NCBI RefSeq assembly: GCF_000695095.2
Contig: NZ_CP011454.1
Span: 2,914,001 to 2,978,000 of the forward strand
From: Gemmatimonas phototrophica
GTDB lineage: Bacteria > Gemmatimonadota > Gemmatimonadetes > Gemmatimonadales > Gemmatimonadaceae
DNA length: 64,000 bases
Reading direction: 5' to 3'
Shown here: positions 2,230 through 8,907 of the stretch, one piece after another
How the letters are laid out: each line of letters opens with the position of its first letter
Numbering within the stretch: the stretch's first letter is position 1
Made by a program: the position numbers and the translations under genes
The notes under the pieces: model-generated
Database searches by the model: none
What the model saw: the letters and a program-made list of their open reading frames with translations, nothing else
Told to the model about the DNA's origin: nothing

Positions 2230-4056
2230 CTACTCTACCGTCACCGATTTTGCCAGGTTACGGGGCTGGTCCACATTACAGGCCCGCTTGACGGCGATGT
2301 AATACGCCAGCAGCTGCAGAGGCACGCTGGCCAGAATGGGGGTCAGCAGATCGACCGTTTCGGGAATGCGGAACTCATAATCGATCTTGCCGGCAAGGCT
2401 GGGTTCTTCGCGCGTGGTAATGGCAATCACCTTCCCCTTCCGCGCTTTCACTTCCTGAATGTTCGACGTGATCTTGTCGAACACCGAGTCGTGCGGGGCG
2501 ATGCACACCACCGGCATCATCTCGTCGATGAGCGCGATAGGGCCGTGCTTCATCTCGGCTGCCGGGTACCCTTCGGCGTGGATATACGAAATTTCCTTCA
2601 GCTTGAGAGCGCCCTCGAGCGCGGCCGGGAAATTGTATCCACGGCCAAGATACAGGAAGTTCGAGGCGCGCTTGAACTCCTCGGCCAGCGCCTCGATCTC
2701 GTCGGCCCGATCCAGAATGCTCTGGATCTGCGCCGGCAGATCGGCCAGCGCCTGGGCAATCTCGCGACCTCGCGCAACACTCAAATCACGCAGACGCGCC
2801 AGCTTGAGCGTGAACAGGGCGAGCGCCACCACCTGACTGGTGAACGCCTTCGTGGAAGCCACGCCAATTTCCGGACCGGCATGCAGGTAGATGCCGCCAT
2901 CATCCTCACGGGCGATGGTGGACCCCACCACGTTCACCAGCCCCAGCGTGCGTGCCCCGCGACGCTTGGCCTCGCGCATGGCCGCGAGCGTGTCGGCCGT
3001 TTCACCAGACTGCGAGATCACGATACACAGCGTGCGCGGCGTGACGATCGGATTGCGGTAGCGGAACTCCGAGGCGTACTCCACTTCCACCGGAATGCGA
3101 CACAGCTCTTCGATCATCATTTCGCCGATCAGCGCGGAGTGCCAGCTGGTGCCGCACGCCGTGATGATGATGTTGTCCACCGCCAGCAGGTCGTCCTTGG
3201 AAATATTCAAGCCACCCAGCTTGGAGAAGCCTTCTTCCAAGATGAGACGCCCGCGCATGGTGTTCTCCACCGTGGTGGGCTGCTCGAAGATCTCCTTGAG
3301 CATGAAGTGGGGATAACCGCCGCGTTCGATCTGCGCCAGGTCCCACTCGATGCGCGTGACAGGCTTTTCGCGAATCGTGGCGTCGAGATCCAGCACCTTG
3401 TAGCCATCACGGGTCACGACGGCGATATCGCCATCGTCGAGATAGACCACGTGCCGGGTATGGGCCAGAATCGCCGAGGCATCAGAGGCGATGAAAAATT
3501 CGTCCTCGCCGATCCCGACGAGCAGCGGGCTGCCTTTGCGGGCCGCAACAATCTTGTCCTTCTCGTCGCTCGTGATGACCGCCATGCCGTACGTGCCGTC
3601 TACCTGACTGAGCGCTTCGATGACGGCGGCTTCGAGGTTGCCGGCATACGTGGCTTCAATGAGATGGGCGAGCACTTCGGTATCCGTATCCGACTTGAAT
3701 ACGTACCCGCGTGCCTCAAGCCCCGCCTTGAGCACCGTGGCGTTCTCGATGATCCCGTTGTGGACCACGGCGATCTTGCCATTCTGGCTGACGTGCGGGT
3801 GCGCATTGGCCTCGGTTGGCGGACCGTGGGTGGCCCACCGCGTGTGGGCAATACCCATTGTTCCCTGCGGCGGATTGGCCGCAATGGCTGACTCGAGACG
3901 CGAGATCTTTCCGGCCGCCCGGCGCGTTTCCACGCCCTTGCCATTCATGATCGCCACACCAGCCGAGTCATAGCCCCGGTACTCGAGGCGCTTGAGCCCC
4001 TCGATGAGCATCGGGGTGGCGATCCGGTTACCGACGTAGCCTACGATTCCACACAT
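2230..4056 (-). CDS. glmS: Glutamine--fructose-6-phosphate aminotransferase (isomerizing)
   Basis: GlmS makes glucosamine-6-phosphate from fructose-6-phosphate and glutamine, the entry step to UDP-GlcNAc for peptidoglycan. It starts MCGIVGYVGN, so Cys2 is the N-terminal nucleophile of the class II glutaminase domain. EYRGYDSAGVA and AHTRWATHG are the usual glutaminase motifs. Two SIS domains follow, with SQSGETADT and the C-terminal PRNLAKSVTVE. At 608 aa it has the normal full length. It lies 31 bp downstream of glmM on the same strand, so glmM-glmS probably form an operon for consecutive amino-sugar steps. No ribozyme-like leader is visible in the short glmM-glmS gap. Confidence 0.97.
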   Translation of the reverse strand: MCGIVGYVGNRIATPMLIEGLKRLEYRGYDSAGVAIMNGKGVETRRAAGKISRLESAIAANPPQGTMGIAHTRWATHGPPTEANAHPHVSQNGKIAVVHNGIIENATVLKAGLEARGYVFKSDTDTEVLAHLIEATYAGNLEAAVIEALSQVDGTYGMAVITSDEKDKIVAARKGSPLLVGIGEDEFFIASDASAILAHTRHVVYLDDGDIAVVTRDGYKVLDLDATIREKPVTRIEWDLAQIERGGYPHFMLKEIFEQPTTVENTMRGRLILEEGFSKLGGLNISKDDLLAVDNIIITACGTSWHSALIGEMMIEELCRIPVEVEYASEFRYRNPIVTPRTLCIVISQSGETADTLAAMREAKRRGARTLGLVNVVGSTIAREDDGGIYLHAGPEIGVASTKAFTSQVVALALFTLKLARLRDLSVARGREIAQALADLPAQIQSILDRADEIEALAEEFKRASNFLYLGRGYNFPAALEGALKLKEISYIHAEGYPAAEMKHGPIALIDEMMPVVCIAPHDSVFDKITSNIQEVKARKGKVIAITTREEPSLAGKIDYEFRIPETVDLLTPILASVPLQLLAYYIAVKRACNVDQPRNLAKSVTVE

Positions 4057-4087: not shown

Positions 4088-5452
4088 TCAAACAAGGGCC
4101 GCGAGTGGTTCGCGCGCTTGGGTGATGAGTTGGCGCGCCTCAGCATCTGAGGGGGCCTCTGCAATGACGCGCACAATGGGCTCCGTGCCAGACGGACGCA
4201 GATGCACCCACCGGTCGGGCCAATCGAGGCGCAAACCGTCCTGCGTATCGGCGCTGGCGTCGGGGAACGCTGCACGGAGCGCCTCGTACACCGCATCCAA
4301 CGGGGCGTCGGGGCGATCCAACTTGTCCTTCACGATGACATAACGTGGCTTCGCGGCCACCAGTGCCGAGAGCGGGCGCCCTTCTTCAACCATCAACTGC
4401 AGCATGAGAGCGGCACCAACGGGCGCGTCGCGACCAAGATGCATCTCGGGAAGAATGACCCCACCGTTGCCTTCGCCACCGATGGTTGCGCCCGCGTCGC
4501 GCATGGTGAGCGCCACGTTGACTTCACCCACCTTGGCGAACTGGAATGGCACGCCGAACTCCGCCGCCACATCGGACACCACTTTGCTGGTAGACAGATT
4601 GGTGACCACCGGACCACGGCGATGCTTCAGCACAGTACGTGCCGCGAACGCCAGCGTGTAGTCTTCGCCCGGTGCGACACCGTCATCGAGGACGAGCGCC
4701 AGTCGATCCACATCAGGATCGGTGGCCAACCCGATATCGGCCTTGGTCGCGCGCACCAGCGCAGCGAGTTCGCCCAGATTCTCCGCGACGGGCTCCGGCG
4801 GACGGTGAAACTTGCCATCAGGTTCCATGTTGATGGCATACACTTCACAGCCAAGTTCGGTGAGCAGCTGCGGCATGATGACGCTGCCCGCGCCGTGACA
4901 GCAGTCCAGCGCCACGCGGAAACGACGGGCGCGGATGGCGTCCACATCGAGCCAGGGCAAGGCCAGCACTTGTGCCAGATGGCGCGCGACCGCCTCGGCA
5001 TCCACTTCAATGGTACCGAGCTGATCCCAGGTAGCGCGCGGAATTCCCGTCTCCAGCAAGCCGCGCATCTCCGCGCCCTCGGCGGCGGAGAGGAACAGCC
5101 CCGACGGTCCAATGAACTTGAGCGCGTTCCACTCGATCGGATTGTGGCTCGCCGTTATGCCCAGACCGCCGGCGGCGTGGTGGTGCTCCACCGCCAGCTG
5201 GATCGTTGGCGTGGGGGCCATGCCGATGTCGATCACCGTGCACCCAACGGATTCCAGTGCGCCATGTACGATGCGGGTGAACATTGGGCCGGAGACACGA
5301 CTGTCCCGCCCCACCACCACTCGGCGGTTCCCGTCGCGTGACGCCCAGGCGCCAAAGGCCGCCGCATACGTGGCAATGACTTCCGGCGTCAGCGCCTCGC
5401 CTACGCGGCCGCGGACGCCGGACACACTGACCATCAACCCATCAAATCCCAT
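4088..5452 (-). CDS. glmM: Phosphoglucosamine mutase / phosphomannomutase family
   Basis: An alpha-D-phosphohexomutase family enzyme. Next to glmS it most likely converts glucosamine-6-phosphate to glucosamine-1-phosphate. The active-site phosphoserine loop TASHNP is at ~residues 100-105 (Ser102), the metal loop is DPDVDRLAL, and the C-terminal phosphate-binding loop is RPSGTEPIVRV. I chose the ATG at 5452 because GAGGAG lies 5 nt upstream; ten extra N-terminal codons in the longer frame precede it. At 454 aa it fits the family. A phosphomannomutase or phosphoglucomutase role cannot be excluded from sequence alone, but glmS linkage favours GlmM. Confidence 0.87.
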   Translation of the reverse strand: MGFDGLMVSVSGVRGRVGEALTPEVIATYAAAFGAWASRDGNRRVVVGRDSRVSGPMFTRIVHGALESVGCTVIDIGMAPTPTIQLAVEHHHAAGGLGITASHNPIEWNALKFIGPSGLFLSAAEGAEMRGLLETGIPRATWDQLGTIEVDAEAVARHLAQVLALPWLDVDAIRARRFRVALDCCHGAGSVIMPQLLTELGCEVYAINMEPDGKFHRPPEPVAENLGELAALVRATKADIGLATDPDVDRLALVLDDGVAPGEDYTLAFAARTVLKHRRGPVVTNLSTSKVVSDVAAEFGVPFQFAKVGEVNVALTMRDAGATIGGEGNGGVILPEMHLGRDAPVGAALMLQLMVEEGRPLSALVAAKPRYVIVKDKLDRPDAPLDAVYEALRAAFPDASADTQDGLRLDWPDRWVHLRPSGTEPIVRVIAEAPSDAEARQLITQAREPLAALV

Positions 5453-5676
5453 GGTGCTCCTCGAGTGAACCCGGCGGGCCATTCCCCGCTCACCTATTAC
5501 TTGCCTGCAACTTGTGGAAAGCTAGACACGTTACACCCCGGGAACCAACCGTTTCAGTACGGTTCGCCCCGCGGAGTACGACGGCTCCCATTCTGCTGTA
5601 AGACGACGAGGGACCGAAGGCGTTACGGTCATGGCCCGGGTACGCACGCGGGTACGCACGTTGGCAGGTCCAGCAT

Positions 5677-5682
5677 TATCCT
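5677..5682 (+). promoter_or_regulatory. Candidate -10 box (TATCCT) 7 nt before ATG 5690
   Basis: TATCCT ends 7 nt before the ATG of the AMP-binding-like gene and there is no Shine-Dalgarno. The same TANNNT-N7-ATG spacing occurs before purD and guaB in this window. Confidence 0.35.
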
Positions 5683-5689
5683 CCACCGC

Positions 5690-6496
5690 ATGGACCCCTT
5701 GGCGCTTCTCCCCTATGCACTGGCCGCCGGCGGTGGCCGCGTTGGCCCGTACGAGACCACAACACTGGTGGCCGCGGGACTCACCCTGCTGCAGCGGTGT
5801 GCGCCACTGGTTCGGGCGTTGAGCGGGAAACGCGCCGGCGTGTTGCTGCCTGATGGTCCGGAATGGATCGTGGCTCTGGCCGCGTCTGAAGGCCGCGGGG
5901 CGGTGGTGCTTGATCCGCTGGTGCTTCGCGACGATCTGGTGACGCACATCACCAACTATCGGATTGGGGCCATCTTCACGAAGAGCGCGCTGGCGGAACG
6001 ACTTCCCGTGGGGATCCCTCACGTTCTGCTGGACGAGGCACCAACGCGTGTGCACGTGATTGCGGGCGACCGTACCACCACCATCGATCTGGGCAGTCAC
6101 TTTGGGCTGGATCTCGCGGGGGACTCCTCCGTGGACGGTGCAAATGAGGAGTGCCTGCTATACGCCGCATCCGGCACGGCGATCACGCATTGGCAACTGC
6201 TGGCGGACGCGCGTCGCTGCATGGAGCTCCACCAGTTCACGCCGGTGGACTGCACACTGACCCTTGCCCCCCTCAGCGACCTCGACACCTTACCGTGCGG
6301 TGTGCTGGCGCCGTTGCTGGCTGGCGGGCGACTGCATCTTTCGCCAGCAGCGGTCAGCTCTTCAACGGCCCTGATGGATTTTCATCCTCCGCTCACGATG
6401 ATCGTTGGCCATGAGGCCGCGCTTGATGCCGTCCGCCACGTCGACGCGCTCTCGTCGGGGCAGATCGAGACCATCATGCTCACGCCACGATCTTGA
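5690..6496 (+). CDS. Truncated AMP-binding (acyl-CoA synthetase-like) protein, probably non-catalytic
   Basis: The 268-aa product matches the N-terminal subdomain of adenylate-forming enzymes. KRAGVLLPDGPEWIVALAA (~residues 47-65) resembles the early motif of acyl-CoA ligases, and LLYAASGTAITHWQLLADAR (~156-175) aligns with the region around motif A3. The nucleotide-binding loop normally written TSGTTGxPKG is shortened to SGTA, which would remove ATP binding. Translation ends where the next core motif (SGGAP-like) would begin, so the rest of the adenylation domain and the C-terminal domain are absent. The 3' end overlaps the convergent response-regulator gene by 17 nt. The start at 5690 is preferred over a 75-codon upstream extension of unlikely composition. 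It could be a pseudogene or a binding-only protein. Confidence 0.6.
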   Translation: MDPLALLPYALAAGGGRVGPYETTTLVAAGLTLLQRCAPLVRALSGKRAGVLLPDGPEWIVALAASEGRGAVVLDPLVLRDDLVTHITNYRIGAIFTKSALAERLPVGIPHVLLDEAPTRVHVIAGDRTTTIDLGSHFGLDLAGDSSVDGANEECLLYAASGTAITHWQLLADARRCMELHQFTPVDCTLTLAPLSDLDTLPCGVLAPLLAGGRLHLSPAAVSSSTALMDFHPPLTMIVGHEAALDAVRHVDALSSGQIETIMLTPRS

Positions 6497-7562
6497 GCGT
6501 CACCTGACGTTGCACGCGCCAGTCCGGGCGCGGAATGGCCTTGGTGAGCAAGGCCCGCTCAAAGGCGTCCACACATTGCGGGTCAAACTGGGTCCCGGCG
6601 CAACGCCGGAGTTCAGCCATGGCATCATCCACCGCCATGCCATCTCGATACGGCCGCCCGCTGGTCATGGCATCGAAGGAGTCAGCAACCGCAGTAATGC
6701 GTGCGGCCAGCGGAATGTCGTTACCAGCCAGGCGGTCGGGCGTACCGTGACCGTCAAACCGCTCATGATGTGAGCGCACCACGGCCAGTGCGACCGGCAT
6801 ATCGCGCAACAGGGGGGCCAGTAATCGCCACCCGATCACCGGATGCTCCATCACGTGCGCATACTCCGCATCGGTGAGCGGTCCTTCCTTGTTCAGCACC
6901 GATTCGCGCACGCCGATTTTTCCGATGTCGTGCAGTCGGCTGCCCAGCTCCAGCTGATCCATGAGTTCCAGGGGCGCGTGCAGTTCCCGCGCGACCGCCA
7001 TCGCATAGCGCGACACGCGGGTGGAATGTCCCCAGGTGTAGCTGTCCTTGATTTCCAGCGCTTCGGCCAATGACTGCAAAGAGGCGAGGAACAGCTCTTC
7101 ATATTTGCGGGACTGCTGCGCTACCCGGCTTTCGAGATGGGCGCGGTGGGCCGCGTTGTCGAGCATGAGCCGACGCTTCTCGAGGGCCTGCAGAACGCGC
7201 GCGCGCACCTCCTCCGTAGAGAAGGGCTTGGTGAGATAGTCCAATGCACCACCGTCGAGGCAGCGCACCGCCAGATTCACATCCGAGACGGCCGTGATGA
7301 TCACGACGGCTGTTTGCGGCCATCGCTGTTGCACAATGCGCAGCAACTCCGCCCCGTCGAGCGCCGGCATGTGAAAATCCGACAGCACCAACGGGAACGT
7401 CTCCGCCTCCAGCGCCGCAACCGCTTCAGCACCGCAGGCCGCCTGCCGGCAGTCGAAACCCTCCGCCGTCATCAGACGGCAGAGGACGGTCCGCATGGCG
7501 GGTTCGTCGTCAACGATGAGGCAGCGACGAGCGTCACCCGCCAGTGCGTGCTGAAGACGCAC
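6480..7562 (-). CDS. Response regulator with HD-GYP phosphodiesterase domain
   Basis: An N-terminal REC domain (CLIVDDEP acidic pocket, LSDFHMPALDG with the phospho-acceptor Asp, and a conserved Lys in LTKPFS) precedes a C-terminal HD-GYP domain. HD-GYP motifs seen are SRLHDIGKIGV, SHHERFDGHGTPDRL and ADSFDAMTSGRPYR. This family hydrolyses cyclic di-GMP, so the product probably turns a phosphorelay signal into lower c-di-GMP. No partner kinase is adjacent. The start is uncertain: GTG 7562 gives 360 aa, while GTG 7586 or TTG 7655 would add residues that do not look conserved. It is divergent from the cystathionine gene at 7738. Confidence 0.88.
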   Translation of the reverse strand: MRLQHALAGDARRCLIVDDEPAMRTVLCRLMTAEGFDCRQAACGAEAVAALEAETFPLVLSDFHMPALDGAELLRIVQQRWPQTAVVIITAVSDVNLAVRCLDGGALDYLTKPFSTEEVRARVLQALEKRRLMLDNAAHRAHLESRVAQQSRKYEELFLASLQSLAEALEIKDSYTWGHSTRVSRYAMAVARELHAPLELMDQLELGSRLHDIGKIGVRESVLNKEGPLTDAEYAHVMEHPVIGWRLLAPLLRDMPVALAVVRSHHERFDGHGTPDRLAGNDIPLAARITAVADSFDAMTSGRPYRDGMAVDDAMAELRRCAGTQFDPQCVDAFERALLTKAIPRPDWRVQRQVTLKIVA

Positions 7563-7737
7563 GTCAGGCCGCCGGCTTGGGATCACGTGGAAGCACAGGC
7601 CACTGAACCAACGGAGGCTGTGCCCCCAAAGGGGCCGGACGGTCGCGCCGGGCAAAGTGGCGACCGGTCACGCCTCGCCCGCGCTGCGCTGCCGCGCTAG
7701 CTTCCCGCTGCATCTCCCCTCGGATAACCCGGAGCCC

Positions 7738-8907
7738 ATGACTCGCATTTACGACGAAGATCTCGCCGGTGGTCTGTCCACTCGCGCCATTCACGCCGGC
7801 CAGCGCCCCGACCCGGTGTCGGGCGCCATCATGACGCCGTTGTACCTCACCTCCACCTACGTGCAGGAGAGTATTGGCGTCAACAAGGGGTACGAATACG
7901 CCCGGGGCAAGAATCCCACGCGGCAGGCGCTGGAGCGTAACGTCGCCATCCTCGAGGGCGGCACGCATGGCTTCGCGTTCGGCAGTGGCATGGGATGCCT
8001 CGACTCGATCATGAAGCTGTTCCGTGCCGGCGACCACATCGTGTGCGCCGAAAACGTCTACGGCGGCACTTTCCGGCTGTTCGATCGAATTCTGCAGCAT
8101 ATGGGACTGTCCTTCACGTATGTGGATACCGGCGATCCGCAGCGCGTGGAAGAAGCCATGACGGCCTCAACACGTGCCCTGCTGGTGGAGACGCCCACGA
8201 ACCCGCTCATGCGGCTCACCGACCTGCGAGCCATGAGCGACGTCGCCAAGCGACACCAGGCGTTGCTGATCGTCGACAACACGTTTGCCACGCCGATCTA
8301 CCAGCGGCCGCTCGAAATGGGAGCGGATATCGTCTGGCATTCGACCACGAAGTACATCAACGGTCACTCTGATATGATCGGCGGCCTCGCAGTGGTTCTT
8401 GAGGACGACCTCGCCGACCGCCTGCAGTTCATTCTGAACGCGGCCGGCGCCGTTCCGGGCCCCTTCGACGCCTGGCTGGCGCTGCGGGGGACGAAAACGT
8501 TGCCGCTGCGTATGAAGCAGCACGATCTCAATGGCCGGGCGGTCGCGGAGTACCTCGTGAATCGTCTTGGTCCGGAGCGTGTGATTTATCCCGGCCTCAC
8601 CACCCACCCGCAACACGAGCTCGCCAAGCGCCAGATGTCGGCCTTTGGCGGCATGATGACACTGGAACTGGGCTCAAAGGACAACGCCCGGCAGTTTCTG
8701 GAGAAGGTCCGGGTGTTCTCCCTTGCCGAGTCACTGGGCGGGGTGGAAAGCCTCACCAATCACCCCTATACCATGACGCACGGCTCGGTCCCAGCCGACG
8801 TGAAGGACGCCATGGGGCTCACGGAAGGGATGGTTCGCCTGAGCTGCGGCATTGAGGACGTCGAGGACCTCATTGAGGATCTGGAGCAGGCGTTGGTGGG
8901 GATTTGA
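7738..8907 (+). CDS. Cystathionine gamma-lyase / gamma-synthase family PLP enzyme
   Basis: A 389-aa Cys/Met-metabolism PLP-dependent enzyme of trans-sulfuration or methionine biosynthesis. Family hallmarks are AIHAGQRPDP near the N-terminus, the YxR-type phosphate site EYARGKNPTRQALE, VDNTFATPIYQRPL, and the PLP lysine in WHSTTKYINGHSD. The C-terminal SLGGVESLTNHPYTMTH fits the same fold. The ATG at 7738 is preferred because GGAG lies 4 nt upstream; longer forms begin in non-conserved sequence. Members of this family differ in substrate by few residues, so I do not choose between cystathionine synthase, lyase and O-acyl-homoserine sulfhydrylase. Confidence 0.9.
   Translation: MTRIYDEDLAGGLSTRAIHAGQRPDPVSGAIMTPLYLTSTYVQESIGVNKGYEYARGKNPTRQALERNVAILEGGTHGFAFGSGMGCLDSIMKLFRAGDHIVCAENVYGGTFRLFDRILQHMGLSFTYVDTGDPQRVEEAMTASTRALLVETPTNPLMRLTDLRAMSDVAKRHQALLIVDNTFATPIYQRPLEMGADIVWHSTTKYINGHSDMIGGLAVVLEDDLADRLQFILNAAGAVPGPFDAWLALRGTKTLPLRMKQHDLNGRAVAEYLVNRLGPERVIYPGLTTHPQHELAKRQMSAFGGMMTLELGSKDNARQFLEKVRVFSLAESLGGVESLTNHPYTMTHGSVPADVKDAMGLTEGMVRLSCGIEDVEDLIEDLEQALVGI

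Follow-up and report, generated by a model that had tools for sequence, protein, structure and literature searches.

The short open reading frame described here, lying in a window of 64,000 nucleotides (the whole stretch of DNA that was analysed), probably encodes a working non-enzymatic protein rather than being a dead gene. On the evidence of its sequence and those of its relatives we favour, with some confidence, a predicted pseudoenzyme of the ANL superfamily that would have been pared repeatedly to a non-catalytic N-terminal module acting by docking. The case for a wider claim seems to us evenly balanced; this is that the genes constitute a lineage-restricted pseudoenzyme family, from which the ATP-binding half has been removed at least five times while the same N-terminal module was kept to serve, without catalysis, a selected role as an adaptor or in signalling that would be new to the ANL superfamily.

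The short protein and its predicted fold

The frame is intact, as the initial annotation gave it, and the local features that it pointed out are also present. These are the 17-nt overlap with the convergent HD-GYP-type gene, the TATCCT sequence separated by a 7-nt spacer from the ATG, and the string SGTA (residues 161–164) followed by ITHWQLLADAR (Table 1). The coordinates of the HD gene are those of the longest open frame, of which the TTG start is uncertain. In the encoded response regulator there is a match to Pfam HD_5 and a string, HHERFDGHGTP, which we take to be a motif of the HD-GYP type that ends in GTP instead of GYP. The names of the glmM-like, glmS-like and metC-like genes are likewise those that we presume from their sequences.

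Table 1. Positions within the window of the short gene, its conserved segments and its neighbours.
Feature	Position	Strand	Basis or remark
Short ANL-fold protein, coding sequence	5690..6496	+	268 aa plus stop; orthologues; AlphaFold pLDDT 92.4
TATCCT, -10-like box, ends 7 nt before ATG	5677..5682	+	putative leaderless-type promoter
Retained helix block around LVAAGLTLLQRCAPLVRAL	5753..5824	+	mean column identity 0.82 full / 0.80 genus / 0.80 other short
Retained loop, IDLGSHFGLDLAGDSSVDG region	6083..6145	+	DLGSH-like string absent from 5/5 f8 homologues
SGTA, site of lost P-loop	6170..6181	+	short strand-turn-strand in model
His167 codon	6188..6190	+	invariant in full, genus and other-short sets wherever a row has a residue
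APLLAGG segment, near end of conserved part	6308..6328	+	region identity 0.77/0.71/0.73
Response-regulator/HD gene, convergent	6480..7655	-	Pfam Response_reg, HD_5, HD; last 17 nt overlap coding sequence
metC-like PLP-enzyme gene, far end of block	7738..8907	+	ORF list, neighbour comparison
glmM-like gene, divergent, upstream of coding sequence	4088..5482	-	upstream of coding sequence in 27/27 genus loci
glmS-like gene, next in block	2230..4056	-	ORF list, neighbour comparison

Does the protein belong to the ANL superfamily? Residues 45–223 align with positions 45–242 of the 384 in the Pfam AMP-binding profile PF00501 (E = 2.6e-4), but the score of 20.3 bits falls short of the gathering cut-off of 29.9 bits, whereas the full-length homologues L014 and L020 match the same profile at E = 1.5e-55 and 3.9e-56, respectively. 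A phmmer search of the window protein against the sequences of the PDB gave no match. The AlphaFold model of the 268-residue protein is confident (pLDDT 92.4, pTM 0.91), and it has the fold of the N-terminal large domain of ANL enzymes (Z up to 20.8, rmsd 2.8 over 253 residues). Among the 50 matches of the model listed by VIA-align, with Z = 18.8–20.8, all are ANL-type enzymes. The model and its structural matches bear out the earlier proposal that the gene encodes the N-terminal half of an adenylate-forming fold. The shortest copy in the genus, of 204 aa, is also predicted with confidence (pLDDT 90.0), and its Foldseek matches to ANL entries are weaker (best E = 6.5e-4).

Full-length, short and absent states at the glmM locus

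How general is the gene? It had been described as isolated, but among 61 genomes searched there is a strong match, in each case syntenic, in 27 of the 30 of the window genus (its own included), together with strong matches in two genomes of sister genera. The remaining three genus genomes are G012 (86% complete), G017 (70%) and G028 (57%), and the sole match in G012 is a weak one lying in another frame of 1164 aa. Searching 179 genomes of the host family with a profile built on the first 154 residues gave strong matches (E below 1e-12, counted from the result table) in 99 of them, and weak matches only in 12 more. Among 394 genomes sampled from the class, a match at E = 1e-8 was found in 67, all of them members of the host family. 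With a full-length homologue as the query and a sample of 298 genomes of the phylum, matches at E = 1e-90 are found in 35, of which 30 are from the host family and five from a second family of the same class, f8. The five f8 homologues (L146–L150) are full length and, like the window gene, lie beside glmM, with a glmM match near the gene in 5/5 and metC-like and glmS-like matches in 4/5. Their N-terminus aligns differently and contains no DLGSH-like string. A search for related loci in a genome-contig collection found no relative.

The gene can also be absent. In 15 genomes selected because they gave no strong match there was no remnant of it within the 1.5 kb upstream of glmM, from which we conclude that it is dispensable in the host family; in 12 of these an HD-type or metC-like gene, the usual neighbour in the block, lies within that 1.5 kb.

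Of the 99 genomes with a strong match we examined the locus in 98, leaving out G154, in which 42 residues were matched. The gene is full length in 43 and shortened in 51, while in four (L022, L067, L099 and L127) the frame meets the end of a contig. With start codons assigned by rule (under which L106 and L125 have none), full-length copies are 462–525 aa, except L126, which is counted as full though its 5′ end is cut, and short copies are 187–423 aa. All 26 countable copies in the window genus are short, as are 8/8 countable copies in g44, 3/3 in g49, 2/2 in g47, 2/2 in g30 and 1/1 in g42; in other genera the short form makes up 6/16 (g46), 2/9 countable (g23) and 1/2 (g34). Among the loci examined, full-length relatives are found solely outside the window genus.

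The two forms differ in their catalytic motifs. The loop that has been lost was originally described as a canonical TSGTTGxPKG, but this does not hold for the family. All 43 full-length copies have T[S/A][A/G]MxGxxLG at this place, and this is found in none of the 51 short copies, including those that reach beyond A5. The canonical A3 P-loop [TS][SG]G[TS]TGxPK occurs in neither set (0/51 short, window included, and 0/43 full length), nor does the A10 catalytic lysine (GK motif; 0/51 and 0/43), and both are absent from the five f8 homologues; the own-genome control for these patterns was only partly useful, finding A3 in four of seven paralogue loci and A10 in three. In 42 of the 43 full-length copies the protein ends no more than 15 residues from a conserved YK(Q/R/M)P string. 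The same 43 have A5 (GYG[L/V]TE) and A7 ([T/S]GD), and full-length copies also retain A8-like motifs. A5 is lost in 50 of the 51 short copies, the exception being the 423-aa L052, which has GYGVTE and a TGD string. With its P-loop gone and its frame stopping before A5, A7, A8 and A10, the window protein looks on sequence grounds like the non-catalytic relative of adenylate-forming enzymes that had been proposed.

What might the full-length form do? In a study of FadD13, replacing the C-terminal lysine removed about 95% of activity, whereas with the P-loop lysine replaced the Km for ATP rose tenfold and about one third of activity remained (PMC2793005). In a review, A10 is described as the key catalytic lysine, and the losses given for P-loop mutants range from 4-fold (Lys169) to complete (Pro168) (PMC8388817); the position equivalent to Pro168 is retained by most full-length copies. 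Set beside the missing motifs, these mutant effects suggest that the full-length form is impaired already. Without an A10 lysine motif and with an altered P-loop it looks like a pseudoenzyme, and as it keeps A5, A7 and A8-like motifs it may not be inactive.

A glmM tree of 78 rows requires at least five changes between full and short forms, a count that follows the neighbouring gene and takes no account of horizontal replacement. The short groups are the window genus with g30, g47 with g49, g44, five copies of g46, and one more g46 copy; support is 88/83 for the branch of the five g46 copies and 89/68 for the neighbourhood of the sixth (L108). Four short copies outside this tree (G137, G120, G061 and G067) may add origins. 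A tree of the N-terminal protein sequences (98 rows, made by a quick method and with many weak branches) needs four changes and places many short copies together; since short copies have long branches, we prefer the glmM tree. We infer that the changes ran from full to short, since the f8 homologues are full length and a half once lost could hardly be regained. The 3′ part seems to have disappeared by physical deletion instead of persisting as a decaying tail.

Selection, a putative promoter and neighbouring genes

Omega was calculated by the method of Nei and Gojobori for 26 pairs, all hand-picked. Over the first 153 codons it is 0.11–0.28 in 12 genus pairs, 0.18–0.51 in eight pairs of other short copies and 0.05–0.21 in six full-length pairs; beyond codon 153 the corresponding values are 0.13–0.63 (10 genus pairs), 0.16–0.62 (eight) and 0.05–0.24 (six). 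When the window copy is compared with eight relatives, the N-terminal values are 0.18–0.34 with dS of 1.2–1.9, near saturation, and those for residues 154–255 are 0.45–0.83, again with synonymous sites near saturation. These values indicate that the N-terminal part is constrained. The tail of the window copy looks nearly relaxed, at best weakly constrained, and much of it may be decaying. In the three nearest species the identity of the window protein is 50%, compared with 80–94% for GlmM and the HD protein, and thus the window gene evolves faster than its neighbours.

Mean column identities (from 43 full, 26 genus and 25 other short rows, given in that order) reveal which segments are kept. 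Like the helix block (Table 1), the loop at residues 132–153 (0.70/0.71/0.70) is as well conserved in short as in full-length copies, and the first 22 residues nearly so (0.69/0.73/0.65). In the P-loop region, by contrast, the values are 0.84/0.31/0.28, with only 6 and 9 of its 13 columns sufficiently filled in the short sets. Identity also falls at residues 47–75 (0.83 to 0.70/0.74) and more so at 76–110 (0.73 to 0.51/0.53), so that parts of the N-terminal domain are less conserved in short copies too. Since the f8 homologues lack a DLGSH-like string and align differently at the N-terminus, the best-kept segments are specific to the family and are not shared ANL motifs.

The promoter-like box is general in the genus. 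A TAnnnT sequence starting 15–11 nt before the start codon is found in 27/27 genus loci, against a background of 2% (94 of 4590 control windows from those upstream regions). Of the 67 other loci that have a start codon and sufficient upstream DNA, 18 carry it as well. The position window was, however, set after the sequences had been seen, and related species are not independent. A spacing of this kind fits a leaderless transcript. The box 7 nt before the ATG (5677–5690) raises the possibility that other genes of the genus are also transcribed without a leader.

Is this then a gene in the course of slow, stepwise death? A dispensable pseudoenzyme might be eroding from its 3′ end under weak remaining selection, with the short forms transient. 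The omega of the window tail would fit this, as would the variation in length among the species of the genus (204–325 aa) and the presence of full, short and absent states side by side in one host family. Yet 26 genus frames are complete, one is cut by a contig end and none is disrupted, where 2.4% of random codons would be stops; N-terminal omega is low in all 12 genus pairs; every genus copy has the promoter box; and the most conserved segments are the same as in the full-length forms. We regard gene death as unlikely. The suggestion of a recent pseudogene is not supported, as neither a broken frame nor, in the N-terminal part, a dN/dS near 1 was found in the genus; for the window tail the evidence against it is much weaker. 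The initial annotation had reasoned that the gene would be just a pseudogene if all relatives were full length and this frame were under relaxed selection; within the genus all countable copies are in fact short, though residues 154–255 of the window copy look nearly relaxed.

In all 27 genus loci the nearest glmM match is divergent, at a distance of 167–259 nt. An HD-type gene match lies downstream in 22 of them (−35 to +242 nt from the stop), being partial in L009 and L015; in four a metC-like gene is found 32–170 nt downstream instead, and L022 ends at the contig edge. The examined stretches of L007, L010, L021, L023 and L128 contain no match to the HD-type regulator gene. G012 is one of five genomes without an HD-type match in the examined stretch, and its ANL-like gene is gone too.

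A different gene is found upstream in some relatives. In 17 of the 98 loci, from six sister genera, an MCP-type receptor gene precedes the ANL-like gene in the same direction (L069, L072, L073, L127 and 13 others), and it is found in 0/27 loci of the window genus; three loci had too little upstream DNA for this check. The four receptors scanned all have HAMP and MCPsignal domains. The common direction, and an overlap with the ANL-like start by 4 nt in four of the 17 loci (the gap being 4–216 nt in the others), suggests an operon in the sister genera.

A possible docking role and comparison with known systems

These genes might provide the setting for a sensor, in which the remaining N-terminal domain of the short protein binds a small acyl, CoA or nucleotide-like ligand. 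The ANL fold is retained in the predicted structure, and in addition to the MCP-type genes there is an HD-type response regulator downstream in many loci. However, the P-loop is lost in 51/51 short copies and A5 in all but L052, no MCP-type gene precedes the gene in the window genus, and the ANL motifs given in the available part of PMC8388817 do not include the retained loop. We think such a sensor quite improbable, and the suggestion in the initial annotation of fatty-acid-like ligands found no support in this analysis. Still less credible is a split enzyme, still catalytic through pairing with a separately encoded C-terminal half, since although split enzymes exist in general, a search of the window's own genome with a full-length homologue found eight other open frames of 521–674 aa beside the window locus and no stand-alone C-terminal half, and the P-loop belongs to the retained half and is destroyed there.

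The docking module that we favour would have arisen as follows. The ancestor would be an ANL-superfamily protein encoded beside or near glmM across the host family, and beside glmM in the five f8 genomes. It would already have been pseudoenzyme-like, with the A10 lysine motif missing and the P-loop altered, though with A5, A7 and A8-like motifs retained. Erosion of the P-loop and deletion of the C-terminal part in the window genus and at least four other lineages would then leave the N-terminal part of the ANL large domain. This short protein is probably made from its own promoter, with selection acting on the first ~150 residues. It most likely docks to another protein through the surface formed by the helix block and the DLGSH loop and performs no catalysis, because it is these family-specific segments, and not the nucleotide or acyl site, that are best kept. 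A signalling role is a possible, speculative setting, suggested by the MCP-type genes upstream in some sister genera and the HD-type response regulators downstream in many loci.

If the module is functional, the host family provides full, shortened and absent states side by side at a single locus, a natural series in which one can ask why an acyl-activating fold persists once its chemistry is gone. The module, being small and predicted with confidence, would also present a defined conserved surface with which to look for a partner. A further caution is that an AMP-binding-like match at the glmM-adjacent locus is no ground for annotating an acyl-CoA ligase.

The nearly whole length of the window model corresponds to the N-terminal domain of known ANL enzymes such as Pcs60p (8aff; Z = 20.8), and it has a similar fold to that domain in feruloyl-CoA synthetase (8weu and 8wev; Z = 19.7–19.9); Foldseek also matched MatB (4fuq) at E = 3.7e-9. 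Unlike the acyl- and aryl-CoA ligases and NRPS adenylation domains of the superfamily, it lacks the P-loop, A5, A7, A8, A10 and the C-terminal domain. L020, a direct homologue in the same family and at the same place beside glmM, is full length at about 480 residues (476 aa), with an atypical P-loop, intact A5 and A7, and no A10; the window protein is the shortened counterpart. Ubiquitin E1 enzymes, whose fold and system are unrelated to ANL proteins, share with it the concept only: their inactive adenylation domain is reportedly a non-catalytic remnant of an adenylating fold that has been retained in a protein.
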